IMG/VR virus record: IMGVR_UViG_3300021425_002585
Coordinates: 1-35,608 of that record
Length of the DNA stretch: 35,608 nucleotides
Source: a virus
Strand: one strand, 5' to 3'
Shown: in pieces, positions 5,138-26,263 of the stretch
How positions within the stretch are numbered: position 1 is the first letter of the stretch
Layout: every line of letters begins with the position of its first letter
Translations under genes and position numbers: made by a program
Notes under the pieces: model-generated
What the model was told of the DNA's origin: nothing
Seen by the model: only the letters and a program-made list of their open reading frames with translations
The model's database searches: none

Positions 5138-5965
5138 TTAAAGTTTGTCAACCGGTATTTTTATAACTTCTGGTACTTCACCTGCTCGCATATTAACTTG
5201 TATGCTGGGCAGTATCAGTTGTGGCATACTCAGTTTAGCATCACGGGCTTCACGCATTTCAACATACTCCGATTTGCTTTTACCAGCAATCTGTATGTTC
5301 TTTGCTTTCTGTTCGCCTACAGTTGTTTCCCAAGCATAATCACGCCCGCCTGGAGCGTAATCGTGTGCCACAAAGATACGTGTTTCATCTGGTAGAGCAA
5401 GTATCTTTTGAATGCTGTCATACAAGTCTGCGGCACTGCCTCCTGGAAAGTCACATCGTGCTGTACCAAAGTCTGGCATAAACATTGTGTCACCTACAAA
5501 GGCAGCATCTTCTATTAGATAGGTTAAACAGGCAGGTGTATGTCCTGGAGTGTGCATTACTCGAGCACGTAGTTCGCCAATCATAAACTCATCACCTTCA
5601 CGGAACAGTCTATCAAATTGACTACCGTCACGCTCAAACTCTGTGCCTTCGTTGAATATCTTACCAAAGGTTTCTTGCACTGTCATTATGTGTGCGCCAA
5701 TAGCAATATCACCACCTAGTTTTTCTTGTAGGTAAGGTGCTGCACTCAAATGGTCTGCGTGAACGTGTGTTTCTAATATCCATTCAACTGTCAAGTTGTG
5801 CATTTGGATATATTGGATAATATTGTCTGCATTGGCAGTGTTGGTTCTGCCACTTGCAAAATCGAAGTCTAGTACGCTGTCTATGATAGCGCATTGTTTG
5901 CTGTCGTCAATTACAACATAACTAACCGTTTTGGTTGCGGTGTCAAAAAAGTCTTGTATTTGCAT
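5138..5965 (-). CDS. Metallo-beta-lactamase-fold hydrolase, persulfide dioxygenase/Blh-like, 275 aa
   Basis: Metal-binding motifs are clear: ETHVHADH (HxHxDH), MHTPGHT, FVGDTMFMPDFGTARCDFPGGSAADLYDSI and FVAHDY. The DFGTARCDFPGG block is typical of the ETHE1/Blh-like persulfide dioxygenase branch rather than glyoxalase II, suggesting oxidation of glutathione persulfide or a related sulfane sulfur compound. I chose the ATG at 5965 because it begins the conserved fold (QIQDFFDTATKTVSYVV); the longer start at 6031 runs into the upstream gene. A late-promoter element AATAAATA lies 5 nt upstream, with no Shine-Dalgarno sequence, so the mRNA may be leaderless. Confidence 0.8.
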   Translation of the reverse strand: MQIQDFFDTATKTVSYVVIDDSKQCAIIDSVLDFDFASGRTNTANADNIIQYIQMHNLTVEWILETHVHADHLSAAPYLQEKLGGDIAIGAHIMTVQETFGKIFNEGTEFERDGSQFDRLFREGDEFMIGELRARVMHTPGHTPACLTYLIEDAAFVGDTMFMPDFGTARCDFPGGSAADLYDSIQKILALPDETRIFVAHDYAPGGRDYAWETTVGEQKAKNIQIAGKSKSEYVEMREARDAKLSMPQLILPSIQVNMRAGEVPEVIKIPVDKL

Positions 5966-5970
5966 ACAAG

Positions 5971-5978
5971 TATTTATT
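5971..5978 (-). promoter_or_regulatory. Late-promoter element abutting the MBL start codon
   Basis: AATAAATA followed by CTTGT and then ATG. In T4 the last A of the element sits near -6, so transcription would begin at or next to the A of the start codon. Confidence 0.5.
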
Positions 5979-6197
5979 TTACCACTTTTCTGCTGTGCGT
6001 TTTTTGATATCTTTTTGAGCACGTATAGCATTCATTAAACGAATGATTCTGCTTTTCTTTTCACCTGGGCGATCATAATTGTTCTTTTGTGACCAAGTTT
6101 TATCTTGTTCTAACTCTTTGGCAAACTGATCGCCTAGTAGTTTTTCTAAATACGACAAGTCGTCGTTACTAAGTTCTTGTATCTTCCGTGAAACCAT
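5979..6197 (-). CDS. Small hypothetical phage protein, 72 aa
   Basis: A charged helical protein (ELSNDDLSYLEKLLGDQFAKELEQ followed by a basic C-terminal half with SRIIRLMNAIRAQKDIKKRT). The start MVSRK at 6197 overlaps the end of the upstream gene by 29 bp; a longer start at 6266 lies entirely inside that gene and is unlikely. Function unknown. Confidence 0.6.
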   Translation of the reverse strand: MVSRKIQELSNDDLSYLEKLLGDQFAKELEQDKTWSQKNNYDRPGEKKSRIIRLMNAIRAQKDIKKRTAEKW

Positions 6198-6387
6198 TCT
6201 GTCTGTCTCTCCATGCTTGTTCGAACTGTTCTTCATAGTCGTACAAAGGTGCGCCGTTACTTCCATCTATCCATAGTCGACGAAAGTATCCGTTGTAACT
6301 ATCTATTACTGTTTGAGGTGATGCGTCGAGGTGGCCTTTAACCATAAAAAATATTCTGTATTCTTCTTTAAGGTCGTTTCTCAACAT
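6169..6387 (-). CDS. Small hypothetical protein, 72 aa
   Basis: A compact soluble protein with a possible ferredoxin-like pattern: YRIFFMVKGHLDASPQTVIDSYNGYFRRLWIDG then an acidic aromatic tail ending FEQAWRDRQNGFTEDTRT. Function unknown. The ATG at 6387 has no Shine-Dalgarno sequence but TGTAAATA lies 4 nt upstream, so it belongs to the putative leaderless set. Confidence 0.65.
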   Translation of the reverse strand: MLRNDLKEEYRIFFMVKGHLDASPQTVIDSYNGYFRRLWIDGSNGAPLYDYEEQFEQAWRDRQNGFTEDTRT

Positions 6388-6391
6388 ACTG

Positions 6392-6399
6392 TATTTACA
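6392..6399 (-). promoter_or_regulatory. Late-promoter element abutting the start codon at 6387
   Basis: TGTAAATA, then CAGT, then ATG. It is a one-base variant of the T4 late consensus TATAAATA at the same spacing as five other genes here. Confidence 0.45.
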
Positions 6400-6431
6400 A
6401 AGATTAAAAATGTAGGCGCTAACATAGGTTA

Positions 6432-7184
6432 TTAATTAGACTTTATAAGTTCAATAACAGTGGCACTAGGGTCAACGGGTCCAAACCTGTATCTATACGG
6501 AGTTTTATGATGATTTCCGTGATATAGTAAGTCAAACCAGCACAGTAAATATTTTGCATTATCCCAATTTTTTGACTCACCGTACCAATGTCCCCAAGTA
6601 TTAACTATTGAAGAATGAGTCAACACCAGTATACAATGAAAACAATATAATGAAAATAAAATTGACGAAATTAAGAACAAACCAATCAACACACAAACAT
6701 TTATAAAAATATAGTAATCAGTGGTAAATTTCATTAACTTTGAACGTTTGTACCATATACCGTAACTTAATTCTTGTATTTTTTTATCTTTCGGTGTAGG
6801 CCAAGCAAACCAACCTGTAAAAAATGCGCCTATTCTTCCATAAATTTTTGGAGAATGAGGATCCCCTTCTTTGTCACTAAATTTATGATGAGTATTGTGT
6901 GCAGTAACCCAAACAGGTATAGGACCTGCACCAGATAATGTTGATAAAAAGAATAATGTATAATGCCAAAATTTATTAGTTTTAAAAGATTGATGAGTAA
7001 AATATCTATGATATCCAACACTTACGGAAAATGTGGCTAGTAAATATGCAAATACTATTAATAAAATACAGACTAAAAGTGGAAATATGTAAAAAGAATA
7101 TAATATACCCAATATTGCAGGAATATGTATTATCCACAAATGTATATAATTTTTTTCTACGGTTTGAACATTAGTGTTTTTCAT
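6432..7184 (-). CDS. Fatty acid desaturase (delta-9 type), 250 aa
   Basis: Three histidine boxes identify a membrane diiron desaturase: HRYFTH (HxxxxH), HNTHHKF (HxxHH) and HGNHHKTPYRYRFG (HxxHH). Hydrophobic spans flank the boxes (IPAILGILYSFYIFPLLVCILLIVFAYLL near the N-terminus and two spans near residues 160-195). The length is typical of short bacterial acyl-CoA or acyl-lipid delta-9 desaturases. The likely role is raising membrane unsaturation during infection; the substrate form (acyl-lipid or acyl-CoA) is not decidable. CATAAATA lies 4 nt before the ATG and overlaps the stop codon of the upstream 81-aa gene. Confidence 0.88.
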   Translation of the reverse strand: MKNTNVQTVEKNYIHLWIIHIPAILGILYSFYIFPLLVCILLIVFAYLLATFSVSVGYHRYFTHQSFKTNKFWHYTLFFLSTLSGAGPIPVWVTAHNTHHKFSDKEGDPHSPKIYGRIGAFFTGWFAWPTPKDKKIQELSYGIWYKRSKLMKFTTDYYIFINVCVLIGLFLISSILFSLYCFHCILVLTHSSIVNTWGHWYGESKNWDNAKYLLCWFDLLYHGNHHKTPYRYRFGPVDPSATVIELIKSN

Positions 7185-7188
7185 TTTA

Positions 7189-7196
7189 TATTTATG
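7189..7196 (-). promoter_or_regulatory. Late-promoter element abutting the desaturase start
   Basis: CATAAATA, then TAAA, then ATG. The TAA within the element is also the stop codon of the upstream gene. Confidence 0.45.
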
Positions 7197-7437
7197 TGAA
7201 TTGTTTTTCCAGTAAATTATATTGTTTAATTTCAGTGATCATTTCTCCAGCTAGATAAAAATTCATTTCTTTAAGTAGATCAATATCATTGCAATATACA
7301 CCAGCAGTTATAAAGTTGCTTTTGGCAATAAAATCTATAATTTGGTTTTTGTTATCCTGTGTAGGAAAAGATACTAAACATCTGGCAGTATCTTCACACA
7401 CTAAAATTTTAGTATTATCAAATTTATATTCTATCAT
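7192..7437 (-). CDS. Hypothetical protein, 81 aa
   Basis: A small soluble protein with alternating strand-like and helix-like segments (KFDNTKILVCEDTARCLVSFPT, NQIIDFIAKSNFITAGVYCNDIDLLKEMNFYLAGEMITE). No family was recognised. It starts at an ATGA overlap with the Hc1-like gene. Confidence 0.6.
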   Translation of the reverse strand: MIEYKFDNTKILVCEDTARCLVSFPTQDNKNQIIDFIAKSNFITAGVYCNDIDLLKEMNFYLAGEMITEIKQYNLLEKQFT

Positions 7438-7613
7438 AAGTCATTTTTCATTTGTTGTATTTCTTGCCTGCGATCAGGTATGAGTTTTTTCAAATCATTA
7501 AGTGCTTGTCTTGCACGAACTGCACTAACCTTTACACCATTATCCTCAAAGTTTTCTATTTCTTTGATGTAAGTTGCAAATGCTAACTTAATTTGTTCAT
7601 GAGTATCACTCAT
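7434..7613 (-). CDS. Histone H1-like (Hc1-type) small phage protein, 59 aa
   Basis: The C-terminal part SAVRARQALNDLKKLIPDRRQEIQ matches the RARKAL-x-L-x-K-x-x-x-x-RRKEI pattern of Hc1-like proteins seen in T4-like marine phages and some bacteria. Its helical N-terminus is HEQIKLAFATYIKEIENFED. DNA binding is inferred only from the family resemblance. Both ends overlap neighbours: the ATG lies inside the last codons of the deoxynucleotidase gene, and the stop overlaps the next ATG. Confidence 0.6.
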   Translation of the reverse strand: MSDTHEQIKLAFATYIKEIENFEDNGVKVSAVRARQALNDLKKLIPDRRQEIQQMKNDL

Positions 7614-8178
7614 TTAAAATTATCTCGCAAATTTGTTGCCAACTGTGTACCCTTGTCACATCTTTATGTTCAAACCACGTATTCCAAGGATGAGAAACTA
7701 AAATAGGTTTAAGTCCATATTTTAAACCTGCGACAGCATTTTCTACTTTGTCTTCAAGCCAAAACATTCCAGTATCTTTGTACTGCTCCAGTATATTATC
7801 CTTTGGAGCGTCATTTCCTACGTAATGCATCTTATCAAATGTAGTTTTACTAAACAAATATCTTAAATGTCTATTCCTTGTTTCTTGAATGTATTCATTG
7901 GTGCCAACTGCTGTACAAATATCAATAGTATATCCATTTGAAACTAGTTTTTCTACACCATCTTTACTATCATTCCAGTAATCCAAATGTGATAACCAAA
8001 CACTTTCATTGAAATCTTTGACCAAACCATTTGCTTGTTCTCTATTAATGTCATACCTTTTATGAATAACATAACTTTCAGGATTACTCACAACAAATCC
8101 TTCGTCTTCCATCCAACTGTTGAATTTTTTGTTCCAATCTAATAAAACACCATCAACATCTGTAATAATTTTTTTCAT
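7606..8178 (-). CDS. HAD-family 5'(3')-deoxyribonucleotidase-like protein, 190 aa
   Basis: The first HAD motif is ITDVDGVLLDW (DxDGV nucleophile); motif II is likely DICTAVGTNE, and the C-terminal aspartates lie in HYVGNDAPKDNILEQY and FWLEDKVENAV. The length and the DVDGVLLDW start fit the NT5C-like branch, which dephosphorylates deoxynucleoside monophosphates; in a phage this would tune nucleotide pools or salvage phosphate. Substrate assignment is inference. No Shine-Dalgarno sequence precedes the ATG, but TATAAAG lies just upstream. Confidence 0.65.
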   Translation of the reverse strand: MKKIITDVDGVLLDWNKKFNSWMEDEGFVVSNPESYVIHKRYDINREQANGLVKDFNESVWLSHLDYWNDSKDGVEKLVSNGYTIDICTAVGTNEYIQETRNRHLRYLFSKTTFDKMHYVGNDAPKDNILEQYKDTGMFWLEDKVENAVAGLKYGLKPILVSHPWNTWFEHKDVTRVHSWQQICEIILNE

Positions 8179-8193
8179 ACTTTATACTCTATA

Positions 8194-8815: not shown

Positions 8816-9826
8816 TTAGTATGTTCCATAAATTGTACCGTTATTTATAACAGTAATTGAATTGGTTGCTGTAATAGCAGCACCACCGGCGCCACCAGTA
8901 CCACCACCGCCGTTTCCTCCAGCTGCGCCCCAGCCGCCGCCAGATCCTGCTGCTGTAGTAGAACTACGAGAATCTGATCCGCCGGTAGCGCCTGGATTTC
9001 CTGCAGAACCGCCTGCAGCGCCAGAAATATTATTACTTGAGCCAGAATTAGCATTGCTTAAGAAACCACCAGTACCTCCAGTGCCTGGCAAAATACGTCC
9101 GCCGGCGCCCCCGCCACCACTAAAGCTCGTGCCTTCATCCCAGAATGTTACTCCAGAACCACCACCTGCACCACCGCCGTGACCGCCTTCTGTACCTCTA
9201 ACGCCGTTAGGACCATCTGTTCCTACATTTCCGACTGATCCACCAGCATTACCAGAAGGTCCTCCAGATCCGCCACCTGCACCACCACCGCCACCTGCTC
9301 TCCATGGATAGGCCGCACTAGAGCTTGCTCCACCACCACCGCCACCTGCGATGAAGGCACCGGATAAATTATTAATAGTAACAGAATCAGACGTAGTTAT
9401 GATAATAGCATCGCCGCCGTAGAGTCCATTACCGGCACCACCGCCGGCACCACCTTTACCTATAATATAGCCTTCATTATTAATAATAACACCGTTTGGG
9501 AAAGATCCAGCAATAGTCAATCCTGCGCCATTAACATCATTAGACCAAACATAAACTCCAGAAGATATATTTAAGGTTACGGCAGAAGTTCCATCCCAGC
9601 CTTGCGCAGTAGCATAAGTTGCAAGATCCATCTCTTGAGTGTTTGTAGAAACAGTGAAGCCAGCAGATGCGCCGTAAAACTGATTAAAGCTAGATGCAGC
9701 GCCAGAAGCTTTATCTATCAGTCCTCTAATATCTTCATCATTAAGAGTACACTGAGTTCCACTGGTGCCTCCAGCTTCTATGTGCAGGTCATTGAGAGAA
9801 ATTTCACCTGATGCTTGTAGAGCCAT
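8816..9826 (-). CDS. Glycine-rich tail adhesin / receptor-binding protein, 336 aa
   Basis: The N-terminus (ASGEISLNDLHIEAGGTSGTQCTLNDEDIRGLI, then SFNQFYGAS) is a virion-attachment type domain seen in T4-like marine phage tail proteins. Residues about 120-325 are a Gly-rich region with repeated GGGGGAGGGSGG-type runs interrupted by short strands, as in polyglycine-sandwich adhesins of T4-like phages (gp38 type). It probably recognises the host surface. It overlaps the upstream fibre gene by 1 bp, as expected for a fibre and its tip adhesin. The antisense proline-rich frame is a shadow of the glycine codons. Confidence 0.75.
   Translation of the reverse strand: MALQASGEISLNDLHIEAGGTSGTQCTLNDEDIRGLIDKASGAASSFNQFYGASAGFTVSTNTQEMDLATYATAQGWDGTSAVTLNISSGVYVWSNDVNGAGLTIAGSFPNGVIINNEGYIIGKGGAGGGAGNGLYGGDAIIITTSDSVTINNLSGAFIAGGGGGGASSSAAYPWRAGGGGGAGGGSGGPSGNAGGSVGNVGTDGPNGVRGTEGGHGGGAGGGSGVTFWDEGTSFSGGGGAGGRILPGTGGTGGFLSNANSGSSNNISGAAGGSAGNPGATGGSDSRSSTTAAGSGGGWGAAGGNGGGGTGGAGGAAITATNSITVINNGTIYGTY
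8842..8849 (-). promoter_or_regulatory. Candidate late promoter inside the 3' end of the adhesin gene
   Basis: An exact TATAAATA about 90 bp upstream of the oxygenase start at 8751. It lies within coding sequence (the Ile-Asn region near the C-terminus), so it may be coincidence. Confidence 0.3.
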
Positions 9827-12135
9827 TAGACTGTTCCATAACCAGTAACATTACCTGTCACTGTTAGATTACCACTTGAATCTATTTTCATTTTATTCGA
9901 ACCACCATACGAGAATATAAGCTCAGTACCAGAAGACTTGACAGTCCAACCCGAACTACCGAAGTTGATATGCATTTCTCCAGTTGATGTAATCTGCTGT
10001 GTGCCACTAATATCAGTATTAAGCTGTATTGTATTAGTACCGTCTGTTACTGTAGTAACGCCAGTGGCACCGGTAGTATTTTTAAGTTCAACGCCTGTAG
10101 ATTTTGTAGTAACCCTTTGTGTTCCGTAATGGAAAAGCTTTGCCTCACCAGTAGATCCGTCAGCTTCAAAATATGGTGTGCCACCATATGAATTATCAGA
10201 TCGAGATCCTAAGATTCTTACATCATGAGAAGCTCCAGTTCCTGCTGCCCATAATACAAGATCTCCGTGCCAACTTCTAATATAGCCACTGCTATTTAAA
10301 TGTTGAATCTCTAAATCGGGACATTGAGTGTCTGTTCCAAGAATATCAACAAGGCCGCCAGCTCCCATATTAATAGAAGATGTATCACTGAAGTTAGCGT
10401 CTACGTTACCGCCAATATTTAAATCAGCATCAACATCTGTTCCATCAGCAACAGTTCTTAATCTCCAGCTACCCGCATAGCTAATTATAGCTTGACCTGT
10501 AGAGTTTGTTCTAATTATTTCTTGACTAGATGCATTTTCAATATACAAATCTTGCGCTTGAATAGACAATGTTTCATTTAGCGATCTAATAAAGTTGTTT
10601 CCGCCGAAGTTTGACTCGTGCCCAATTTGCAAGTCGCTATCGTCGCCAAAATAGATATAATCATAGTCTCCTATCAGGATATCGGCGTTATTTACTGTTA
10701 GATCACCACCAAGTGTTGGTGTTGTATCATCCTGTAGAGCAGTAATAAATGTTGGAGTGCCTGTTAACGAACTGTATGCACCATCAAATGCATCTGTTAT
10801 TCCGTAACCAGCAATAGTTGTTGGTGTACCAGTTAATGCACCGAATGTACCATTAAATGTACTATAATCTGTTCCAGCCACTGCTGCTGAAATATTTCCA
10901 CTACCGTCTGACTTAACTAATCCGTTGATTGCACCTACAACTGGATCTGTTTCAGTATAACCTGTCAAATATCTTCCATCTAAATCCACTGTGACAGTGG
11001 TTGCATCGCCACCTCTTGTAAGCGTCAACACACCATTGCCAGTGTTAAAACTTGCTGCTGTAATTCTTGCTAAGTTGGTGTCATCAAACAATGCACTAAA
11101 GTCCACTGTAAACGAACTAGCATCGTCACGTGTGAAAGTTGCTATACCAGTATCAGCTGCCACACTACCGCTTGTAATACGTGCTAGGTTTGTATCGTCT
11201 ACTGCCCAGCTAAGATTAATATTATTTACTGTACCAGTTTCGTCAGTGTATCGTAATCTTTGATTCACACTGTCACTAATAAGTGTTGTTGTAGTTTCGC
11301 TTGTAAGATAAGTTCCAAAATCGCTTATTTGTGATTCTGTAATACTGAGTGCTGCTTGGTGTTGTGTTACACTTGATTCAGTAATATTAGCGTTTGGAAC
11401 ATTGGCCCATGTGACAGTACTTGATAAATCATTTGTTTCTGTTGTCAAATAGGCACCTAAATCACTTATTTGCGACTCTGTAATACTGAGTGCTGCTTGG
11501 TGTTGTGTTACACTTGATTCAGTAATATTAGCATCAGGCACATTAGCCCAAGTTACTGCTGAACTTAGATCATTTGTTTCTGTAAATGATGTTAGATAAC
11601 CCGAATCATTTGTAAATGCGCTTACATTAGTTGGCGCACCTGTTAATGAACTGTATGCTCCATCAAATGCGTCTGTAATACCATAACCTGCAATGGTTGT
11701 AGGTGTGCCTGTCAAACTAGCAAAAGCAAAATCTTGAGTAAATGTATTAGTAAAGGTAATGCTGTCATTTACAGCATCTGTTGTAATACTGATATTGGTT
11801 CCTGCAACCAAGGTTAAACTATCAGTTTTATTATCAGCTGCTACATTGTTTTGACCACTCACTATAAATTCACTAAAAGCGTTTTGGTTGATTTCACCGG
11901 AATTGCCTGCTATTAAACTTTGCCAATTTCCCGCAATGTAACCTTCAAAAGCGTTTGCTGTGGTGTTGAATCTAAGTTGCCCTATCTGAGGTGTCGCTGT
12001 TCTTTCAGATGTTGTGCCTGATGGAATTTGAACTGATCCTGTAGCACTGTCGCGAGGTGCGATGGCTTCAAAGTTTGCATCCATTTCATTATAGGTTAAT
12101 GCAGAACCCTTGTCTGCTCTCGTGATAATAGCCAT
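9826..12135 (-). CDS. Tail fibre-like virion protein, 769 aa
   Basis: The N-terminus includes LTYNEMDANFEAI and TPQIGQLRFNTTANAFEGYIAGNWQSL, common in T4-like phage fibres. The middle has two tandem 47-residue repeats (NDLSSxVTWANVPxANITESSVTQHQAALSITESQISD) and two distant copies of SLTGTPTTIAGYGITDAFDGAYSSLTG, interleaved with DDTNLARIT blocks. The C-terminal third is beta-rich with short Gly/Ser/Thr motifs and ends in TVTGNVTGYGTV. It is probably a trimeric fibre shaft, with the Gly-rich protein downstream as its adhesin. AATAAATA lies 4 nt before the ATG. Confidence 0.75.
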   Translation of the reverse strand: MAIITRADKGSALTYNEMDANFEAIAPRDSATGSVQIPSGTTSERTATPQIGQLRFNTTANAFEGYIAGNWQSLIAGNSGEINQNAFSEFIVSGQNNVAADNKTDSLTLVAGTNISITTDAVNDSITFTNTFTQDFAFASLTGTPTTIAGYGITDAFDGAYSSLTGAPTNVSAFTNDSGYLTSFTETNDLSSAVTWANVPDANITESSVTQHQAALSITESQISDLGAYLTTETNDLSSTVTWANVPNANITESSVTQHQAALSITESQISDFGTYLTSETTTTLISDSVNQRLRYTDETGTVNNINLSWAVDDTNLARITSGSVAADTGIATFTRDDASSFTVDFSALFDDTNLARITAASFNTGNGVLTLTRGGDATTVTVDLDGRYLTGYTETDPVVGAINGLVKSDGSGNISAAVAGTDYSTFNGTFGALTGTPTTIAGYGITDAFDGAYSSLTGTPTFITALQDDTTPTLGGDLTVNNADILIGDYDYIYFGDDSDLQIGHESNFGGNNFIRSLNETLSIQAQDLYIENASSQEIIRTNSTGQAIISYAGSWRLRTVADGTDVDADLNIGGNVDANFSDTSSINMGAGGLVDILGTDTQCPDLEIQHLNSSGYIRSWHGDLVLWAAGTGASHDVRILGSRSDNSYGGTPYFEADGSTGEAKLFHYGTQRVTTKSTGVELKNTTGATGVTTVTDGTNTIQLNTDISGTQQITSTGEMHINFGSSGWTVKSSGTELIFSYGGSNKMKIDSSGNLTVTGNVTGYGTV
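11300..11582 (-). repeat. Two tandem 141-bp repeats within the tail fibre gene
   Basis: Two direct copies of a 47-codon unit lie side by side. A core of over 50 bp (roughly 11336-11390 and 11477-11531) appears identical, while the flanks differ at several sites. This pattern suggests recent duplication or gene conversion and may allow repeat-number variation in the fibre. Confidence 0.75.
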
Positions 12136-12139
12136 ACAG

Positions 12140-12147
12140 TATTTATT
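12140..12147 (-). promoter_or_regulatory. Late-promoter element abutting the tail fibre start
   Basis: AATAAATA, then CTGT, then ATG. The TAA in the element is the stop codon of the upstream 87-aa gene. Confidence 0.5.
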
Positions 12148-12406
12148 CTGTGATGTCGTCTAAAGTACGTATTCCTACATAACTAGTTTGTCTATTACCA
12201 ACTAGTCCAGGATTATTTTCTATATATCCTTGTTGTAAATAAGAATATAAACTTTTTTCTTCTTCGGTAAGAGGAGCAGTTACAGCATATGCTTGTGCAG
12301 TCAGTTGTGCCTTGCGCACAGGATCTGTTTCTTCTGCTGCTTGTTGCAATAAACCAGCAATGTCCGGGTTTGGAGGAAAATTAAATGTACCGTAGCTAAC
12401 TGCCAT
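12143..12406 (-). CDS. Hypothetical virion-associated protein, 87 aa
   Basis: An acidic, helical protein (DIAGLLQQAAEETDPVRKAQLTAQAYAVTAPLTEEEKSLYSYLQQGYIE). No family was recognised. Its ATG lies inside the last codons of the PAAR gene (11-bp overlap) and it has no Shine-Dalgarno sequence of its own, so it is probably made by coupled translation. Position between PAAR and the fibre suggests a tail or baseplate accessory role. Confidence 0.6.
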   Translation of the reverse strand: MAVSYGTFNFPPNPDIAGLLQQAAEETDPVRKAQLTAQAYAVTAPLTEEEKSLYSYLQQGYIENNPGLVGNRQTSYVGIRTLDDITE

Positions 12407-17167: not shown

Positions 17168-18778
17168 TTATGAGCGATAGGATACCGTAAAAGTAAATTC
17201 GTCTGTATCAACACCTTCGTCTAGTGTAAGATTTTGACAATCAATGAAAATTTTATTTCCAGAAAGTGTTGCTCTAAATTCCAAAGCTTCTAATTTTGAC
17301 GAATTACCCGAATAAGTATAATCATCTCCGAAATCAATATCGGTGCCACTCAGTTCTCTGTTCCATTCAAGTCGCCAAGTACCTCTACGATGCACAGGAC
17401 CCGGTGCGTTTTCCGCAGTATATTTGTAATCAACTTCTATTACACCTCTATCGGTTAGTGCCGGTAATCCCATAAAATATTCATATGTAAGTATACCACC
17501 TATAGTAGTAGTGACAGGATAAGCATTTTCATAATTTATAGGTCCTTCAATTTCTGGAGGGTATAGGCCTGTGTTGAAATTTGGATCTACAGTAAGATCG
17601 CCCGTGCGTTGGAAATAATCACCAAGACTGTGGTTACCATGTTTTGCAAATCTAATAACACTGGATTGTGGATTATGACTATTGGCTCCATCATTGCCTA
17701 CAAAAACAAATTTGTTATTTTTGCTGGTATTGGTTGTGCCTTGATCACAAATTATAGCCTGGTTATTAATATTGTTAAAACTGATGTTTTCGAAAGTATT
17801 GTAACTTGGACCAGTAACCTGACCTGCTGCACCAGGCACAGCGTCCACAGCAAACTTAAATCCATAACCCAAGGTTTTCATTTTGCCGCCATCAAAATGA
17901 TTGTAACTTGCATCGTCATCAGTAAAGTAACCGTATACATAATTTTCAATGTGGATATTTTTAAAAATGTTGTTGTTGCAATCAAGCGATCCGATTGAGC
18001 CACTTCTTAATTTAAATGCACCGTAGTCAACGTCTATACCATCACCGAAACTCCATTGACCTACACATCTTATATTCCTAAATTCACTGTCTCTACAGTT
18101 TTGTAATATAATTGTACCACCATAACTGCTATGTGTAATGGTCATGTCTGAAATTCTGATGTATCTAGGTTGGTTACTACTACTATTTGTACTATCTTCT
18201 GCATAATTTCCTGCACCAGCACTATCGCCATTCTTAGTATAAAAAACACTAGAGCCTGTGCCGGTTAACAATGTTTTTTCCATTCCGTCACCGATAATGT
18301 TTGCAAAAGGTGGAATGTAAATTGGCGAAGTAATTAGGTATTCTCCTGCAGGTATTTTTAATGTAATATTTTTATTTTCACCACCAATTGGAGATAAAAA
18401 CAATTGATCTACTGCTCTTTGCAATGCTGCTGTTTGATCTGAGCCATCGCCGTTTGCACCAAAATCTGTTACACTAACAATATCGTCTAATTTTTGTGCA
18501 ATTGTTCTCTGCACAGGCGTTGCACCAGTTGCACCAGTTTGAACATTATCATTTGTTCTATAAGTGTATTGTCCTACTAAATCAAGAATATTGCTTTTGG
18601 TTGTAAGTATTTCTGTATTACCAGTTGCAGGAGCACCTTCGCTTACACTACCGTTGCCGATATAAAGTTTTTGTAAGTCTACTGCCCAACCCAGTTCACC
18701 ACTTGATAGCTGCGGTACACCACTAGTCCTTGCTCTACCTCTACGATGCTGTATTCTTGAAATTTGTACAACGGCCAT
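17168..18778 (-). CDS. Tail spike/fibre with right-handed beta-helix (pectin-lyase fold), 536 aa
   Basis: An N-terminal attachment segment (QISRIQHRRGRARTSGVPQLSSGELGWAVDLQKLYIGNG) is followed from residue ~100 by VSVTDFGANGDGSDQTAALQRAVDQLF, the classic entry of pectate-lyase-like spikes, then PAGEYLITSPIYIPPFANIIGDG and repeated N/D/G beta-helix rungs (RISDMTITHSSYGGTIILQNCRDSEFRNIRCVG). The C-terminal ~120 residues form another beta domain. It probably binds or cleaves host surface polysaccharide. SD AGGAG lies upstream with a late promoter 26 bp before the ATG. Confidence 0.82.
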   Translation of the reverse strand: MAVVQISRIQHRRGRARTSGVPQLSSGELGWAVDLQKLYIGNGSVSEGAPATGNTEILTTKSNILDLVGQYTYRTNDNVQTGATGATPVQRTIAQKLDDIVSVTDFGANGDGSDQTAALQRAVDQLFLSPIGGENKNITLKIPAGEYLITSPIYIPPFANIIGDGMEKTLLTGTGSSVFYTKNGDSAGAGNYAEDSTNSSSNQPRYIRISDMTITHSSYGGTIILQNCRDSEFRNIRCVGQWSFGDGIDVDYGAFKLRSGSIGSLDCNNNIFKNIHIENYVYGYFTDDDASYNHFDGGKMKTLGYGFKFAVDAVPGAAGQVTGPSYNTFENISFNNINNQAIICDQGTTNTSKNNKFVFVGNDGANSHNPQSSVIRFAKHGNHSLGDYFQRTGDLTVDPNFNTGLYPPEIEGPINYENAYPVTTTIGGILTYEYFMGLPALTDRGVIEVDYKYTAENAPGPVHRRGTWRLEWNRELSGTDIDFGDDYTYSGNSSKLEALEFRATLSGNKIFIDCQNLTLDEGVDTDEFTFTVSYRS

Positions 18779-18799: not shown

Positions 18800-19657
18800 T
18801 TAGTATTTATCCAACATATGTTTAGAAACATTATCGTAAACTATTTTAAATGTTTTGTTACCATTTAATATAAAATTCTGTGTAGGATCTTGCCATTTAT
18901 GAGTAAAATAATGATATTTTTCAGTGGCTAATAATTTATTTAAAATTTTTAAATCACCTTGATGTTTATCTAATGTAAGATGATCGAGATGTATTCCGCT
19001 AGGTTTATATCTATCTTGCGCATATAATTGTTCAACAAAATAGTATTCTGAGAAAGTAGAACCGTTCCAGTTAAAATTTTTTATTGTTTCAATAAAAAGA
19101 TTCCAGTCCGGAATGTGTTTTCTAAGTGAACGTCCGCTTAGTGGGAAAGGTGGAATATTTCCCCTAGTAATGCCTGTACTAGGCTTACCAGTCCATTTTT
19201 TTACAAAATCATTTATTCTATCAAATGGTGTATCAATTATTTTATTTGTTGGCTTCATATACAGCATATTTGCCAAATAAAATTGAGGATGCACGGGCCA
19301 GGTTTTACTGTCTAAGCTGATTGTTGTGTAATTTTTATTTTGCCAAGCATCCCACAATTTTATAAATTGTTGTTGCCAGTATGGCGCTTGCCAAAAATTG
19401 CTCAACACTTTACCAGTAGGATGCGATATACCAGGAACCGTGTGTATATCATTTAAAATAACATTTGCACTAGTAGGTACTTTTTTTTGCAGTTTATAAA
19501 ACCATTGATGCCAAGAACTTTGACGTTTTTCATTACACCAGATACTATATTCTCCTGTGTATCCTAACTTTGCAATTAATTTGTATTGTTTTTCAAACGT
19601 CCATTTATCTCTGTTGCAAGTAACAACACTTATTCTTGTATCATCCAAACTTTTCAT
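18800..19657 (-). CDS. Hypothetical protein, 285 aa
   Basis: A soluble alpha/beta protein, rich in aromatic residues, beginning DDTRISVVTCNRDKWTFEKQYKLIAKLGYTGEYSIWCNEKR. The start vaguely resembles glycosyltransferase-type nucleotide-binding folds, but no DxD motif or other catalytic signature is convincing. The ATG at 19657 overlaps the end of the nuclease gene by 17 bp; the longer frame to 19840 lies inside the nuclease gene and is rejected. It sits between the nuclease and the tail spike. Confidence 0.6.
   Translation of the reverse strand: MKSLDDTRISVVTCNRDKWTFEKQYKLIAKLGYTGEYSIWCNEKRQSSWHQWFYKLQKKVPTSANVILNDIHTVPGISHPTGKVLSNFWQAPYWQQQFIKLWDAWQNKNYTTISLDSKTWPVHPQFYLANMLYMKPTNKIIDTPFDRINDFVKKWTGKPSTGITRGNIPPFPLSGRSLRKHIPDWNLFIETIKNFNWNGSTFSEYYFVEQLYAQDRYKPSGIHLDHLTLDKHQGDLKILNKLLATEKYHYFTHKWQDPTQNFILNGNKTFKIVYDNVSKHMLDKY
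18804..18811 (-). promoter_or_regulatory. Late-promoter element upstream of the tail spike
   Basis: GATAAATA, then a ~20-nt leader with AGGAG, then the ATG at 18778; this is the standard leadered arrangement. Confidence 0.5.
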
Positions 19658-20355: not shown

Positions 20356-20632
20356 CAGCTCGTTTAGCCATTTTACTTACTGAGTCTTTGTCACCTCCAC
20401 CATTGGCTACTTTATTTACAAAAGAGATTTCGTCTTGTGTATAGTTTCCAACGATGTTTTTAATTCTATCATCTGCTTGAAATGCAGCATCAAAAGTTTC
20501 ATAGTTAAATTGTGGCACTTCACTGTTGTCCATCATTTTATCTAAATCTTCAAATGAGATAGATTCAACACCTTCTGCTTTTAACAAGCGAAGTAGTTTA
20601 TAAAGATTATCGCTATTAACTTCTTCAGTTAC
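20336..20632 (-). CDS. Frameshift-expressed C-terminal extension (98 codons, -1 frame)
   Basis: This frame opens directly at the G after the A9 run that ends the upstream gene and continues VTEEVNSDNLYKLLRLLKAEGVESISFEDLDKMM... to SKMAKRAVDLSDL. It has no ATG near its start and no Shine-Dalgarno sequence; a TTG at 20587 is the only start-like codon early on. The most economical reading is that it is made as the C-terminal part of a 386-aa fusion by -1 frameshifting at A9G, or that the A9 run is a sequencing error and the gene is single. Confidence 0.6.
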   Translation of the reverse strand, partial: VTEEVNSDNLYKLLRLLKAEGVESISFEDLDKMMDNSEVPQFNYETFDAAFQADDRIKNIVGNYTQDEISFVNKVANGGGDKDSVSKMAKRAVDLSDL

Positions 20633-20641
20633 TTTTTTTTT
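20590..20641 (-). other. Probable -1 ribosomal frameshift signal (A AAA AAG plus stem)
   Basis: The 0 frame reads TCA AAA AAA AAG TAA, giving a slippery A_AAA_AAG followed at once by the stop. Five nt after the heptamer a stem can form between GAAGAAGT (20626-20619) and ACTACTTC (20597-20590), with one mismatch. Slipping by -1 enters the open 98-codon frame exactly. Confidence 0.6.
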
Positions 20642-21495
20642 GAAAGTTTACGAGCTAAGTTACGTGGATCAACACTTTCACGTGTTTCTCTGCCTGCAGG
20701 CTCATCGCCACCTGCTGCTGCCGACGCTGCTGCAAATTCATCATCTGCTGGAGGTACCACACCGGAATCATCCATATCTACTGTTGGTTCCATTCCTGCG
20801 TCCATTTCAGGGGCCATATCATCGCCGCCCATTGGCGCTTGCATTTCACCTTCGCCTGTTAACATTGTAACACCGCTGCTTAACGCACCTCTTGTTGCTT
20901 CCATTGATGTGTATAGTTCATCTAAACTTGCTTTGATAGTTTCAACAAACGCATTACTTTGTTCTACACCCATTTCGTCACGAATTGCATCTGCAAGATC
21001 CAACATTGATTCTGTTTTCATTTCAGCAGTGTCTTCCATCCAGCCTGTAACTCTGTCAACCATGTCCTTAGCTGCCATAACAATCTCAGCTTGATCTTCT
21101 GCACCTTCAGAAACTTTCTTCTTTTTCTTAGCATCCTTAGCTGCTTGTGCAATTGGTTCTTCGGTATCGCCATCGTCATCAAGATCTGGACTATCAGGAC
21201 GTCTATTGTGTGTCTTTTCTTCGATTGCTTCTTCTTCAATATCACCACGCTCTGAAATTTCAGCATTCAACACATCTAAGAACAATTTTGACTTTTGATA
21301 TTCGTCGCTTTCTACAACAGTGTTAAAACTTTCACTAACTTCAATTTGACTCAGACGTGTTCTTAATTTGTTACGTGCATCGTGAAGTTGAGCTAATGTA
21401 AATGATTCTAATGCAATGCGCTTACCAAAGCGTTTTGCAAGGCTTTCGTTTAGTGTTTTTGCTGTTACTGGTTTTGCAAACTCTGAAATATTCAT
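20629..21495 (-). CDS. Acidic phage protein, possible prohead core/scaffold-like, 288 aa (0-frame product)
   Basis: An N-terminal helical region (LNESLAKRFGKRIALESFTLAQLHDARNKLRTRLSQIE ... YQKSKLFLDVLNAEISERG) precedes an acidic/lysine-rich linker, a helical middle and a very acidic Met/Ala/Asp-rich tail (MGGDDMAPEMDAGMEP...), ending ARKLSKKK. The composition resembles phage scaffold or core proteins, but no family is certain. It has SD AGGA and a late promoter 27 bp upstream. The last codons form the slippery site described separately. Confidence 0.7.
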   Translation of the reverse strand: MNISEFAKPVTAKTLNESLAKRFGKRIALESFTLAQLHDARNKLRTRLSQIEVSESFNTVVESDEYQKSKLFLDVLNAEISERGDIEEEAIEEKTHNRRPDSPDLDDDGDTEEPIAQAAKDAKKKKKVSEGAEDQAEIVMAAKDMVDRVTGWMEDTAEMKTESMLDLADAIRDEMGVEQSNAFVETIKASLDELYTSMEATRGALSSGVTMLTGEGEMQAPMGGDDMAPEMDAGMEPTVDMDDSGVVPPADDEFAAASAAAGGDEPAGRETRESVDPRNLARKLSKKK

Positions 21496-21521
21496 GGTGA
21501 TATCCTATTTTTATTTAAAAG

Positions 21522-21529
21522 TATTTATC
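21522..21529 (-). promoter_or_regulatory. Late-promoter element upstream of the acidic core-like gene
   Basis: GATAAATA located 26 bp before the ATG at 21495, with a normal AGGA leader between. Confidence 0.5.
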
Positions 21530-22660: not shown

Positions 22661-22661
22661 T

Positions 22662-22904
22662 TTAACTTACCTGCATTAAAACTACAACAATAGTAGAAAG
22701 TAATCCTGCTACAATCGTACCGCTTGCACCAATTATAACTTTCACTAGACTGTTTTGTCCTGCTGCCATTTGGTCCGATATGTCATCTAGTTTTTCTTCA
22801 ACAGTGGTAAGACGTTTGTCCATCTGTTCATAACGTAGAGCACAAAGATCCACGTGAGCTTCTAAACTCTCTTTTTCTAATGCAGTTGATCTAAGTGTCG
22901 ACAT
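22662..22904 (-). CDS. Small membrane-anchored coiled-coil protein (XhlA-like), 80 aa
   Basis: An N-terminal helix (LRSTALEKESLEAHVDLCALRYEQMDKRLTTVEEKLDDISDQM) is followed by one C-terminal membrane span (VKVIIGASGTIVAGLLSTIVVVLMQV). This layout resembles XhlA/holin-accessory proteins, and the LEAHVDLCA motif recurs in marine T4-like phages. A lysis or membrane-anchoring role is inferred. GATAAATA at 22990-22983 lies ~80 bp upstream in the end of the previous gene. Confidence 0.6.
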   Translation of the reverse strand: MSTLRSTALEKESLEAHVDLCALRYEQMDKRLTTVEEKLDDISDQMAAGQNSLVKVIIGASGTIVAGLLSTIVVVLMQVS

Positions 22905-22981
22905 TTATTACTCCATTTTGTTTACGACAGGAAATAGCCTTTTCGTTACCTTTAATAAATGCCTAAGTGTTTCCACTAACA

Positions 22982-23356
22982 TTATTTATCCATTTCAAAG
23001 ATAATATTAATATCTTTTCCGCTGGTTATAAAAATAGCATTATCAAACCTTACTGTTTCATTTAGTCCTTGAATAAAAGGCACAAACATAAAATCCTGCT
23101 CCATCATTTCTACGGTAAGAGCACCTTCATACTCAGTTTCAAAATCCAATTGCCAAACAGTATTATTACCAAATCTTTTGTCCTTTGTTGTAATAGGATC
23201 GGATTCTATAGTAGGATTTACTCTTAACCCTATTGTGTTAATAACCGTTAAAAAATTTTGTTTTTGTCCATAAGAAAGTTTATCATCTTTTGAAGCCTTG
23301 ATGTGGTTGGTAATGTCTATTGTGGTTTTAATACAAAATTTAGTATGTGTAGCCAT
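22982..23356 (-). CDS. Hypothetical protein, 124 aa
   Basis: A mixed alpha/beta protein (HTKFCIKTTIDITNHIKASKDDKLSYGQKQNFLTVINTIG...NNTVWQLDFETEYEG...MMEQDFMFVPFIQG). No family was recognised. Its ATG lies 17 bp inside the upstream sulfotransferase gene. The stop region contains GATAAATA, a possible late promoter for the next gene. Confidence 0.6.
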   Translation of the reverse strand: MATHTKFCIKTTIDITNHIKASKDDKLSYGQKQNFLTVINTIGLRVNPTIESDPITTKDKRFGNNTVWQLDFETEYEGALTVEMMEQDFMFVPFIQGLNETVRFDNAIFITSGKDINIIFEMDK

Positions 23357-23894
23357 ATTCTATAATATCTTTCATATAAACATCCCAAACAAGATCTTTC
23401 AACTCAGGTGTATACAAATCTTTATAATCATAATCTCTTGATGTGTTTAATTTTGGTAAAGGTTTATCACAACCTAATAATTCTTGTATCTGAGTAAATT
23501 CTTCTTCGAGATTTTCATATTTTAAAATAATAGTGTGTGTGCCAAACCAATTGTACTGCGGAGTGTCCAACTTGTACCAATTTCTTGCCCATAACAAAAA
23601 AGGCTGGTATGAAAGACTGTTTTGATAATTTACAAATCTAGTTAACATCCATTCTTTGAAACTTATGGTACCGCCGTTTGAAAACATATACCAACTTGCT
23701 AGACGTTCCCAAGGATTTCTAACCACACCAAAAGTTTTTTCTGTTCTAGGAAAGAATTCATTGACCTCTACTATGTGTCCGTGCTTCCTTCCAGGAATAG
23801 TCACAAAGTTTTCATCTAACCAATTTGATATACTGGTGCCTGCTGTTTTAGGATTATGTATAAATGTGACTTTGTGTTCAGGTAAATGACGCAT
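23340..23894 (-). CDS. Sulfotransferase-like protein, 184 aa
   Basis: A PAPS-dependent sulfotransferase pattern: FIHNPKTAGTSI (5'-phosphosulfate loop, K-T-A-G-T-S) and FGVVRNPWERLASWYMF (3'-phosphate motif, R-N-P-x-x-R-L-x-S). The length is short but within the Sulfotransfer_2-type range. The target may be host surface glycans or the phage's own fibre. TGTAAATA sits 4 nt before the ATG (leaderless type), and a terminator precedes it. Confidence 0.75.
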   Translation of the reverse strand: MRHLPEHKVTFIHNPKTAGTSISNWLDENFVTIPGRKHGHIVEVNEFFPRTEKTFGVVRNPWERLASWYMFSNGGTISFKEWMLTRFVNYQNSLSYQPFLLWARNWYKLDTPQYNWFGTHTIILKYENLEEEFTQIQELLGCDKPLPKLNTSRDYDYKDLYTPELKDLVWDVYMKDIIEYGYTY

Positions 23895-23898
23895 ACAC

Positions 23899-23906
23899 TA
23901 TTTACA
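23899..23906 (-). promoter_or_regulatory. Late-promoter element abutting the sulfotransferase start
   Basis: TGTAAATA, then GTGT, then ATG. Confidence 0.45.
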
Positions 23907-23911
23907 GTCAC

Positions 23912-23942
23912 AAAAAAAGCGCCACTGTAAAAGTGACGCTTT
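23912..23942 (-). terminator. Rho-independent terminator after the 110-aa gene
   Basis: Minus-strand stem AAAGCGTCAC/GTGGCGCTTT (one G-U pair) followed by a run of Ts. The opposite strand also ends in Ts, so it may work both ways. Confidence 0.8.
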
Positions 23943-23960
23943 GTTTTTATAAGTCTAAAC

Positions 23961-24293
23961 TTATGCTGCGCTGAAGTCGTCGATGTCGCGCTCTACAACT
24001 AGTGCGCTTGATAAGTCGATTGAATCAACTGTACCTAATGCACGGATACGAACTTGCATATCTGCTGCTGATGTTGCGTGTCCATCACAGATGCAGAAGA
24101 TTTTACCTGCTGAACCAACTGATTTGTACATCAGTGGCTGTGCTTCGCGTACCATTGCTTCGATTGTTGAATCTAATCCACCTTTACCTGAAATGTCAAC
24201 TAGTGCATCTAGTTCTAAACCAACTAGGTTTGCTACGCTATATTGTGTATCGTGTGTGTGGCCAATGCCGTTTGTTCTTGTGAATGATGCCAT
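23961..24293 (-). CDS. Hypothetical, probably abundant virion protein, 110 aa
   Basis: A small Ala/Asp/Ser-rich protein (ASFTRTNGIGHTHDTQYSVANLVGLELDALVDISGKGG...GSAGKIFCICDGHATSAADMQVRIRALGTVDSIDLSSALVVERD). It is monocistronic, with a late promoter (CATAAATA, 24358-24351), a strong AAGGAG site and its own terminator, which suggests high late expression as for a decoration, capsid or tail protein. No family was recognised. Confidence 0.7.
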   Translation of the reverse strand: MASFTRTNGIGHTHDTQYSVANLVGLELDALVDISGKGGLDSTIEAMVREAQPLMYKSVGSAGKIFCICDGHATSAADMQVRIRALGTVDSIDLSSALVVERDIDDFSAA

Positions 24294-24358
24294 TTTTATC
24301 TCCTTAGTTCTCTAAATGACTGCCCACTCTCCGTGGACTTTTCTATATTGTATTTATG
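24294..24358 (-). promoter_or_regulatory. Late promoter and leader of the 110-aa gene
   Basis: CATAAATA at 24358-24351, then a ~55-nt leader with a CCAC/GTGG hairpin (loop GGAGA) and a downstream AAGGAG. It is the longest leader among the late-type promoters here. Confidence 0.55.
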
Positions 24359-24376
24359 AAATAAGAATAAAAAAGG

Positions 24377-25246
24377 TTACTTACGGGCTCTTTTGGCACG
24401 ATTATGCAGTATTTTAAGCTGATCTATGTATGCAGGACCTGCTTTTACAATATCATGTACCATAAGGACTAAAGGCAAATACGATCCTGCGATGCTTGCT
24501 GGAATAGTTTTTCCATTGTTGATCATATCTAAAAATCTACTCACAAACGGCAACGTATTAACCGGAAGAATTAATCTATAATTTTGAACATTGCCCATAC
24601 CGCCTATATCGGGTGTGCTAATCTTAGGTTCAGGATCAGTTGCATTAAAGTCTTCAAGGTTATTATCTCCTGCAAACTTACTAAACATAGGCATTACATC
24701 ACTGTCGCTTAATTTGCTACGTGCAGCAAAAAGCAATCGTGTTATTGTGGTTTTTCTTTCTGCTGTTGTATCAGTATCAAAAGTATTGAGTCTTCTACGT
24801 ATTTCTTTATAATGAAAATTATTGATATTCAAATCAGATTCTAATGTTGCAATTAGTCTTATATCTTCTGCGGTAACTGCATCACCACTTGCTAATCTTC
24901 TTAGAAATCCGTTTAGTTTTCCTACGCTAATCAGTGTGCTCTTTCTTTCAGCAGCCGCAGCACCTGGATTCTTTAATTTTTTCAATGCTGACTCATCGCC
25001 AGTAATAAAATAAAATAAATTATACAAATCAGTGCTGTCTATTCTAAAACGTGAATAGTCTCTATACATTACAGTCTTGTAACTGTATTTCATTGCATCG
25101 GTTTTGTGTTTACGGTAAAAACGCATTGCCTGCAAACACAGGATGGTCAAATATGCTTTTTCTTTACAGTCGGTATAAGTAAGCAAACGTTGATTTCTTG
25201 CATCACGTGTCATTCTCGACTCTTGCAAATCTTTTATAAAATCCAT
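24377..25246 (-). CDS. Hypothetical phage protein, 289 aa
   Basis: A largely helical, basic protein (LQESRMTRDARNQRLLTYTDCKEKAYLTILCLQAMRFYRKHKTDAMKY...RRRLNTFDTDTTAERKTTITRLLFAARSKLSDSDVMPMF...IDQLKILHNRAKRARK). I recognise no domain. Position among virion and assembly genes suggests a morphogenetic role, but that is context only. It starts overlapping the stop of the 83-aa gene by one base. Confidence 0.65.
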   Translation of the reverse strand: MDFIKDLQESRMTRDARNQRLLTYTDCKEKAYLTILCLQAMRFYRKHKTDAMKYSYKTVMYRDYSRFRIDSTDLYNLFYFITGDESALKKLKNPGAAAAERKSTLISVGKLNGFLRRLASGDAVTAEDIRLIATLESDLNINNFHYKEIRRRLNTFDTDTTAERKTTITRLLFAARSKLSDSDVMPMFSKFAGDNNLEDFNATDPEPKISTPDIGGMGNVQNYRLILPVNTLPFVSRFLDMINNGKTIPASIAGSYLPLVLMVHDIVKAGPAYIDQLKILHNRAKRARK

Positions 25247-25497
25247 TAACGTTTGCTTTCTTTGATTTTTTCAACACCTACTTTGAATTTTTTACTATTT
25301 CCTGCTTTGATACTGTTTATTAACCTGCGTTCAAGATCAATAGCTTCATCTGCATCATAGATTTTGTGTATTTGCTCAAGTAGGTTTACCGCACTATCAA
25401 TTATGTTAGTGCCAGTTGTCTGGATAAAGTCGTCCCCACGTTCTTCAACACGGATATTACTCAGTTCTTCTAATATACTTCTAGTGCGTCTTCTCAT
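25246..25497 (-). CDS. Hypothetical protein, 83 aa
   Basis: A small helical protein (MRRRTRSILEELSNIRVEERGDD...SAVNLLEQIHKIYDADEAIDLERRLINSIKAGNSKKFKVGVEKIKES). I start it at 25497, 4 nt after TATAAATA; the longer frame to 25617 lies inside the lipase gene. No function is recognised. Confidence 0.65.
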   Translation of the reverse strand: MRRRTRSILEELSNIRVEERGDDFIQTTGTNIIDSAVNLLEQIHKIYDADEAIDLERRLINSIKAGNSKKFKVGVEKIKESKR

Positions 25498-25501
25498 ATA
25501 G

Positions 25502-25509
25502 TATTTATA
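25502..25509 (-). promoter_or_regulatory. Late promoter TATAAATA abutting the start codon at 25497
   Basis: An exact TATAAATA, then CTAT, then ATG; its TAA is also the lipase stop codon. This is the clearest case of the leaderless arrangement. Confidence 0.6.
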
Positions 25510-26263
25510 ACATTTTTTCGATGTTGGAAATATAGTTGACCATACTGTGATCACTGAAATTATCAATTGATCCTTGTTTAATACCCATCCACATTCCTCT
25601 CCAACGGTCTTTAGCACGTTGCCAGGTTGTTAATTTACGTTCAAGACCATATGCATTCATATAGTGTTCTGTGCCGTGATGCTTATACCCCATCACTGCC
25701 AATGGTACTCTAGTAACAATGTCATTGTTGTTTACCCAGCGATGGTGTGTAATACCTAAACTGTTGCAGTAACCTTTCCATCCAACTCTAGGAGAACCAA
25801 ACGTGTATAATTCTTCTACAGGATTTATACCTTCATAAAGATGGCAACGACTGGCCATTACTGTTGCCATGGCAGCACCCAAGCTGTGACCACAGAACCA
25901 AAGTTTTTTGTTTGAATTCTTTTTCCTGTCAATATCTTCCAGCACCATTGGCCAGAGTTCATCAACTTCGGCTTTGAAACCTTTGTGTACTCTACTGACA
26001 GTTTCGGCCATAACAGGCACCGCATTTAAATCTGCTTTAATGTCATTGAACTCTGATGGTTGTGTGCCGCGACACGCTATAACCAAATCTGTTTTATTCA
26101 TAAAACGGTATGCCTGTGCGCCTTCTCTATTGTAAAATTCTACAGTTGTAAACCCAAGTTTACGAACTTCTTTTGCCACGTGCTCAACATCATCACTGTA
26201 AGCTATTTGTGCAAGATTTGCAAATAGCAAACTTCTTTCCATAAATTTCATTTCTGTAATCAT
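25505..26263 (-). CDS. Class 3 lipase-like alpha/beta hydrolase, 252 aa
   Basis: KLWFCGHSLGAAMATVMASRC carries the nucleophile serine in GHSLG; TFGSPRVGWKGY and VNNNDIVTRVPLAVMGYKHHG supply the expected aspartate, and NFSDHSMVNYISNI a candidate histidine. The N-terminal AQIAYSDDVEHVAKEVRKLGF and TDLVIACRGTQPSEFNDIKADL are typical of class 3 lipases. It may act on host membrane lipids during lysis or entry. SD AGGAGGG is strong. Confidence 0.82.
   Translation of the reverse strand: MITEMKFMERSLLFANLAQIAYSDDVEHVAKEVRKLGFTTVEFYNREGAQAYRFMNKTDLVIACRGTQPSEFNDIKADLNAVPVMAETVSRVHKGFKAEVDELWPMVLEDIDRKKNSNKKLWFCGHSLGAAMATVMASRCHLYEGINPVEELYTFGSPRVGWKGYCNSLGITHHRWVNNNDIVTRVPLAVMGYKHHGTEHYMNAYGLERKLTTWQRAKDRWRGMWMGIKQGSIDNFSDHSMVNYISNIEKML

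Follow-up and report, generated by a model that had tools for sequence, protein, structure and literature searches.

In the virus record IMGVR_UViG_3300021425_002585 of IMG/VR, six minus-strand genes carry the hexamer TAAATA exactly 4 or 5 nucleotides (nt) before their ATG, and none of them has a Shine-Dalgarno sequence. The record, from a marine phage, is a fragment of 35,608 bases, and the whole of this stretch was analysed (hereafter, the window). Judged from their sequences, these elements are probably gp55-type late promoters that produce leaderless late mRNAs. The hypothesis is as follows. TAAATA would form the core of late promoters of the T4 type and would be recognised by host RNA polymerase carrying a phage gp55-type sigma factor. 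When TAAATA lies 16-31 nt before the ATG (leadered arrangement), an mRNA with a short leader and a Shine-Dalgarno sequence would be made. With 4-5 nt between TAAATA and the ATG (leaderless arrangement), transcription would start on the A of the AUG, and the ribosome would have to recognise a 5'-terminal AUG. We infer the identity of the sigma factor in the window phage, the actual 5' ends and translation as leaderless mRNAs from the patterns described below.

All six sites had been listed in an initial annotation of the window and were confirmed; a Shine-Dalgarno sequence was present in the usual interval at 0 of 6. The spacer between TAAATA and ATG is 5 nt at the gene starting at 5965 and 4 nt at those starting at 6387, 7184, 12135, 23894 and 25497. 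The 5-nt site (5963..5976, minus strand, like all elements described here) precedes an MBL-fold (Blh-like) gene (5138-5965), and a spacer of 5 is kept in a 97% ortholog at locus L389, though the sequence upstream of that ortholog is unrelated to the window's. The 4-nt sites lie at 6385..6397 (open reading frame (ORF) 6169-6387), 7182..7194 (desaturase-like gene 6432-7184), 12133..12145 (tail-fibre gene 9826-12135), 23892..23904 (sulfotransferase-like gene 23340-23894) and 25495..25507 (virion structural gene 25246-25497). A spacer of 4 was also found in three of four aligned orthologs of ORF 6169-6387 (76-94% identity; the alignment of the fourth did not begin at the start codon) and in 5/7 start-aligned orthologs of the tail-fibre gene. 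The desaturase-like family showed the leaderless form in three members, the window counted. In the ortholog table of this gene, three of the four rows were aligned to non-start codons and were excluded from the counts.

Counting the pattern over the whole window was too weak on its own. TAAATA occurs 45 times against 43 expected, that is, without enrichment, and TAAATAN{3,6}ATG occurs 8 times against 3.98 expected, a marginal excess that was reached in 6 of 100 shuffles. These counts favour chance, by which sites picked out by eye would simply reflect the abundance of TAAATA and ATG in an AT-rich genome. At gene starts, however, TAAATA was found at 4-5 nt six times, compared with a mean of 0.3 and a largest value of 3 for 14 permuted hexamers; this count is six with a laxer ORF-overlap rule and four in a stricter run, in which two short ORFs were lost. 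In this spacing control, which had been named beforehand as the refuting test, the peak at 4-5 nt was enriched in the window, eight long related contigs, SAR11 phage HTVC008M and Rhizobium phage RHph_I1_18. The absence of a peak for permuted hexamers of the same composition refutes chance, and relatives and orthologs repeat the spacing, so that the probability of this explanation is practically negligible. The proof of the 4-5 nt arrangement rests mainly on the relatives, not on the window alone.

When 139 loci and the window were de-duplicated, 39 sites (28 with a spacer of exactly 5) had TAAATA at 4-5 nt, compared with 0-11 (mean 5.3) for the 14 permuted hexamers. Duplicate sites were removed on the basis of their context or of the first 15 residues, and contigs of one clade are not independent. 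The distribution of spacings was bimodal with a second hump at 16-27 nt, in which 100 of 113 sites had a Shine-Dalgarno sequence, as compared with 4 of 39 at 4-5 nt. We then scanned all hexamers by position at 4,522 non-redundant ATG starts of the window clade, taken from 119 pieces (the window, 38 slices of the eight long contigs and 80 ortholog loci). TAAATA at 5 nt was the top signal other than Shine-Dalgarno sequences (53 vs 7.6, Poisson 5e-27). The same signal was again the top one in HTVC008M (11 vs 0.67), and TAAATA peaked at 28 nt in T4 (9 vs 0.93). In keeping with the TATAAATA-like octamer of T4-type late promoters, the TAAATA core was enriched at fixed positions, although the two preceding bases varied; of the one-base variants, TAAGTA showed the strongest enrichment at 4-5 nt (21 vs 4.4). 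A Shine-Dalgarno sequence was found at 5 of 85 leaderless sites of the clade but at 157 of 195 leadered sites. As for start codons, the 4-5 nt peak was confined to ATG (97 vs 8.1), with no excess at GTG (3 vs 3.4) or TTG (2 vs 4.0). The structure of the coding start did not differ between leaderless and leadered genes (mean minimum free energy of the first 30 nt, -1.04 vs -1.26; P 0.97).

T4 late promoters cover -13 to -6 (PMC1524935), so that +1 would fall on the A at position 6 after TAAATA. At the 195 leadered sites of the clade, T occupied position 4 in 47% and position 5 in 49%, and A occupied position 6 in 118/195; the corresponding values for T4 (n=34) were T 53%, T 50% and A 56%, and permuted-hexamer controls of the clade had A at 37-44%. 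On base composition, the predicted +1 would lie roughly one turn of the helix past the element, at the same position as in T4. T directly precedes the ATG in 83% of the leaderless sites with a spacer of 5 and in 84% of those with a spacer of 4; in the former, the T followed by ATG would make the initiator A the A of the AUG. The predicted placement of the start site on the ATG by T4 geometry, as initially annotated, stands for the spacer of 5 (5965), with an initiator signature common with T4, and is one nt short for the spacer of 4 at the other five sites. A genuine late promoter that initiates a few nt off, so that the mRNA has 1-3 nt of leader or begins within the ATG, would suit the spacer of 4, which is not the exact T4 geometry. 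It would also suit a family starting with MLVNEI or MLVEEI (loci L062-L114), in which 11 of 36 homologs have TAAATA-N8-ATG without a Shine-Dalgarno sequence and a leader of ca. 3 nt is predicted. On the other hand, the peak is sharp at 5 and the T directly before ATG fits +1 on the A, and we consider initiation off the AUG rather unlikely.

The initial annotation also described the same element farther upstream of other genes with a normal Shine-Dalgarno sequence, and this was borne out. A predicted leadered late promoter at 18804..18809 has TAAATA 25 nt before the ATG of gene 17168-18778, and a predicted pair at 21512..21527 has it 26 and 16 nt before the ATG of gene 20629-21495, both with a Shine-Dalgarno sequence. 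In the ortholog tables, which display at most 26 orthologs per gene, TAAATA at 20-29 nt with a Shine-Dalgarno sequence was found in all 26 displayed of 29 orthologs of the former gene, and TAAATA with a Shine-Dalgarno sequence in all 26 displayed of 29 orthologs of the latter. The third example, TAAATA at 24351..24356, does lie 57 nt before the ATG of gene 23961-24293 with a Shine-Dalgarno sequence, but is a weak candidate, as 0 of 12 start-aligned orthologs have TAAATA within 60 nt. Both architectures were found side by side across the window and the clade orthologs, in agreement with their proposed coexistence.

Orthologs switch between the leadered and leaderless forms. For the gene starting at 25497, TAAATA lies within 45 nt of the start in 78 of 80 loci and at 17-30 nt in 71 of the 80; a spacer of exactly 4 occurs only in the closest relatives (L040-L046; seven loci, four distinct contexts). 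Among the 26 displayed of 32 non-redundant orthologs of this gene, TAAATA lies 17-30 nt before the start in 24, of which 23 also have a Shine-Dalgarno sequence. Similarly, gp3 has the leaderless arrangement in HTVC008M and Mosig and the leadered one in Melnitz and S-PM2, and gp25 is leaderless in HTVC008M and RHph_I1_18 and leadered in Melnitz, S-PM2 and nt-1. In HTVC008M, Mosig and Melnitz alike, gp2 has the leaderless arrangement. The 85 leaderless sites of the clade belong to 43 gene families, 19 of which have at least two members, and start-aligned leadered homologs exist for six leaderless families.

The initial annotation noted that the element in several cases overlaps the stop codon of the preceding gene, and indeed the TAA is the stop of the upstream ORF in three of the six window genes (7184, ORF 7192-7437; 12135, ORF 12143-12406; 25497, ORF 25505-26263). 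This overlap, and the fact that coupling does not require a Shine-Dalgarno sequence, would also be expected if the genes were translated from longer polycistronic mRNAs by translational coupling, the ATG following the upstream TAA stop by 4 nt and TAAATA not being an operative promoter. However, TAA as the first in-frame stop was equally common at leadered (82/195) and leaderless (37/85) sites, and the spacing agrees with the initiator position. Upstream terminators also speak against coupling. Within 30 nt upstream of the element, 14 of the 85 leaderless sites have a terminator-like hairpin, compared with 5 of the 195 leadered ones (Fisher 7e-5). Of 49 starts that have a T-run 15-23 nt upstream, 28 (counted by eye) carry TAA[A/G]TA, 4-5 nt and ATG, most of them behind hairpins, and read-through into such genes should be low. 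The gene starting at 23894 is of this kind: a terminator-like hairpin with a T-run (23912..23939, read from the sequence) ends 17 nt upstream of its ATG and an in-frame stop lies 6 nt upstream, so that there is hardly room for a leader, which argues against both coupling and alternative starts. The T-run hairpin and TAA[A/G]TA-N4-ATG were present in 8/8 start-aligned orthologs of this gene. Taken together, we regard translational coupling as unlikely. The region 23892-23939 and its relatives form a recurrent compact module (hairpin, T-run, ca. 7 nt, TAA[A/G]TA, 4-5 nt, ATG) that occurs in at least two gene families.

If the start codons had been wrongly assigned, the real starts would lie elsewhere and have Shine-Dalgarno sequences, and in-frame starts upstream do exist for 5965 and 25497. 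In contrast, no in-frame start codon precedes the genes at 6387, 7184, 12135 and 23894 before a stop is reached, and 0 of 6 window genes have a start with a Shine-Dalgarno sequence in the next 40 codons. Most cellular homologs of the protein starting at 5965 align from residues 1-6, and all 80 relatives of that at 25497 align from residue 1. Furthermore, all 12 leaderless-type ATGs of HTVC008M coincide with coding sequence (CDS) starts chosen by its depositors, as do all four spacer-5 ATGs of RHph_I1_18 with deposited CDS starts. A misassignment of the starts is thus very improbable.

The 4-5 nt peak was examined in 22 genomes or contigs (Atu_ph07 to 400 of 490 kb, nt-1 to 240 of 247.5 kb, and the related contigs G024, G025 and G027 minus their last 455 to 1423 bases). 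It was clear in the window, its eight relatives (G022-G027, G033 and G034; P 4e-3 to 3e-11), HTVC008M (12 vs 0.9, P 4e-10) and RHph_I1_18 (4 vs 0.2, P 7e-5). Borderline peaks were seen in Mosig (6 vs 2.1, P 0.02), Melnitz (3 vs 0.7, P 0.04) and P-SSM4 (3 vs 0.8); leadered sites outnumber the 4-5 nt sites in Mosig and Melnitz. With a Bonferroni cut over the 22 genomes, G025 (P 4e-3), Mosig, Melnitz and P-SSM4 would fail. No peak was found in T4, S-PM2, Syn9, phiM12, RaK2, Atu_ph07, Cr30 or nt-1. The leaderless-type genes of HTVC008M include homologs of gp2, gp3, gp4 and gp25, the tail tube cap and the tape measure. Transcripts are predicted to begin on the A of the AUG at record positions 6280, 7562, 11972, 18943, 19456, 31132, 49760, 75830 and 142360 (plus strand) and 16007 and 18916 (minus strand) of HTVC008M, and at 9112, 85354, 119569 and 130236 (minus strand) of RHph_I1_18.

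Several observations weigh against leaderless late mRNAs from gp55-type promoters. At five of the six window sites, the spacer is 4, the +1 of the T4 consensus would be the U of the AUG, and initiation must shift one base upstream. The lack of Shine-Dalgarno sequences at 4-5 nt is partly geometric, as permuted hexamers, too, have such a sequence at only 10 of 100 sites. The GTG comparison has little power because leadered GTG genes are also few (8 vs 3.4). Alphaproteobacterial hosts are over-represented among the phages with the peak, but this link is loose: such a host is not sufficient, since phiM12, Atu_ph07 and Cr30 lack the peak, and Mosig and Melnitz show it weakly. An explanation by host class was accordingly kept only in part. 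Finally, profiles, a permissive search and family searches detected neither gp55 nor gp45 in the window and its eight related contigs, all of which are fragments, and gave only chance-level matches. A gp55-type late sigma factor is present in RaK2, PA5oct, SCTP-2, Vibrio phage 2.275.O, Atu_ph07, HTVC008M and RHph_I1_18; the gp45 family was found in two of 13 records (HTVC008M and RHph_I1_18), and gp33 in HTVC008M, the sole genome searched for it. In 16 viral loci (L127-L142), a distant homolog of the window desaturase adjoins a gene for the gp55 late sigma factor.

The window elements resemble known late promoters. Those of T4, which depend on gp55 with the gp45 clamp as activator and gp33 as co-activator, have a TATAAATA core without a -35 element and precede virion genes (PMC2988020, PMC1524935), and they share with the window clade the T-T-A composition at positions 4-6 after TAAATA. 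The predicted promoters described here likewise precede virion genes, namely the tail-fibre and virion structural genes in the window and gp2, gp3, gp4, gp25 and the tail tube cap in HTVC008M. The T4 elements differ in that they mostly lie 23-31 nt before the ATG, with no peak at 4-5 nt (1 vs 1.8). Cyanophages S-PM2 and Syn9, of the same phage superfamily, have NATAAATA late promoters with the same core (PMC2984593), but each has 0 sites at 4-5 nt; P-SSM4 has 3 vs 0.8. In jumbo phage CBB, which was compared by motif description, ATAAATA precedes structural genes and a gp55-like sigma factor is encoded (PMC5259590). RaK2 and other jumbo phages share the structural protein family of the gene at 25497 and have the late sigma factor, although the peak at 4-5 nt is lacking in RaK2 (1 vs 4.3). 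In bacteria, 171 start sites of leaderless mRNAs, all AUG, were described in Sinorhizobium meliloti (PMC3616915), with a 5'-terminal AUG and no Shine-Dalgarno sequence as predicted here; these differ in being transcribed from host promoters with mapped 5' ends, whereas the window transcripts would come from phage late promoters and are predicted only.

T4-type late transcription is a textbook system, and the leaderless arrangement would be a variant of a known promoter type. The AR9 paper remarks in general terms that phage transcripts are often leaderless. No description of leaderless late mRNAs of T4-type phages was met in the excerpts of the literature searched (including PMC3037559, PMC5312081, PMC2704228, PMC10504331 and PMC7892664). 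We tentatively suggest, as a possibility that is less than even, that in several T4-superfamily lineages including HTVC008M a class of late genes repeatedly lost leader and Shine-Dalgarno sequence, giving two translation classes of late mRNAs. If so, these classes could set the ratios of virion proteins or take advantage of host ribosomes with a preference for 5'-AUG mRNAs, and the reported failure to detect late promoters in pelagimyophages would be accounted for. Late-promoter prediction was reported as unsuccessful in the genomes of a pelagimyophage survey (PMC7029224); the TAAATA spacing offers a reason for this failure and supplies exact predicted transcription starts in a SAR11 phage that is available as an isolate. 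The spacing also bears on virion gene expression in phages of abundant marine bacteria and on the annotation of gene starts.

The window carries a gene for a permuted (two-piece) transfer-messenger RNA (tmRNA) of the alphaproteobacterial type (4824..5154; RF01849, E 1.9e-26; RF04321, E 6.8e-20), and TATAAATA stands at 5120..5127, upstream of the conserved RNA block of the tmRNA, with 4 nt between them. The distance from TAAATA to this block is 4-5 nt in four distinct genes (the window and loci L212, L231/L120 and L234), and the sequence after TAAATA differs in L240 and L222. Because of these two loci, and as the mature 5' end is not established, the tmRNA was rejected as an exact calibrator of +1 and kept as support only. 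Tags differ among the tmRNAs of the relatives L212, L231, L234 and L240. Pelagimyophages and Melnitz are also known to have two-piece tmRNAs, with a promoter that was described there as early (PMC9004378).

The window proteins include ribonucleotide reductase, a tail fibre, an exonuclease and virion structural proteins. The product of 25246-25497 is an 83-residue structural protein that matches PHROG 11854, and tblastn with it gave matches in the records of 23 phages of Pseudomonas, Klebsiella, Vibrio and Salicola, most of them jumbo phages, including RaK2, K64-1, PA5oct, Vibrio phage 2.275.O and SCTP-2. The large structural protein 31799-32800, used as a query for the nearest annotated phages, gave no match. 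The nearest relatives of nrdA are cyanophages. The MBL-fold protein of 5138-5965 matches the dioxygenase half of Blh, a bifunctional sulfur transferase/dioxygenase (E 5e-117, below the family cut-off), and is most similar to Rhodobacteraceae proteins (up to about 70%). Since this gene is closest to Rhodobacteraceae and the permuted tmRNA is of the alphaproteobacterial type, we infer an alphaproteobacterial host for the window phage. Also on the minus strand, the window encodes a PstS-like phosphate-binding protein (28831-29796), a Bmp/PnrA-like ABC substrate-binding protein (3709-4800) and two 2-oxoglutarate oxygenase-like genes (1935-3709).

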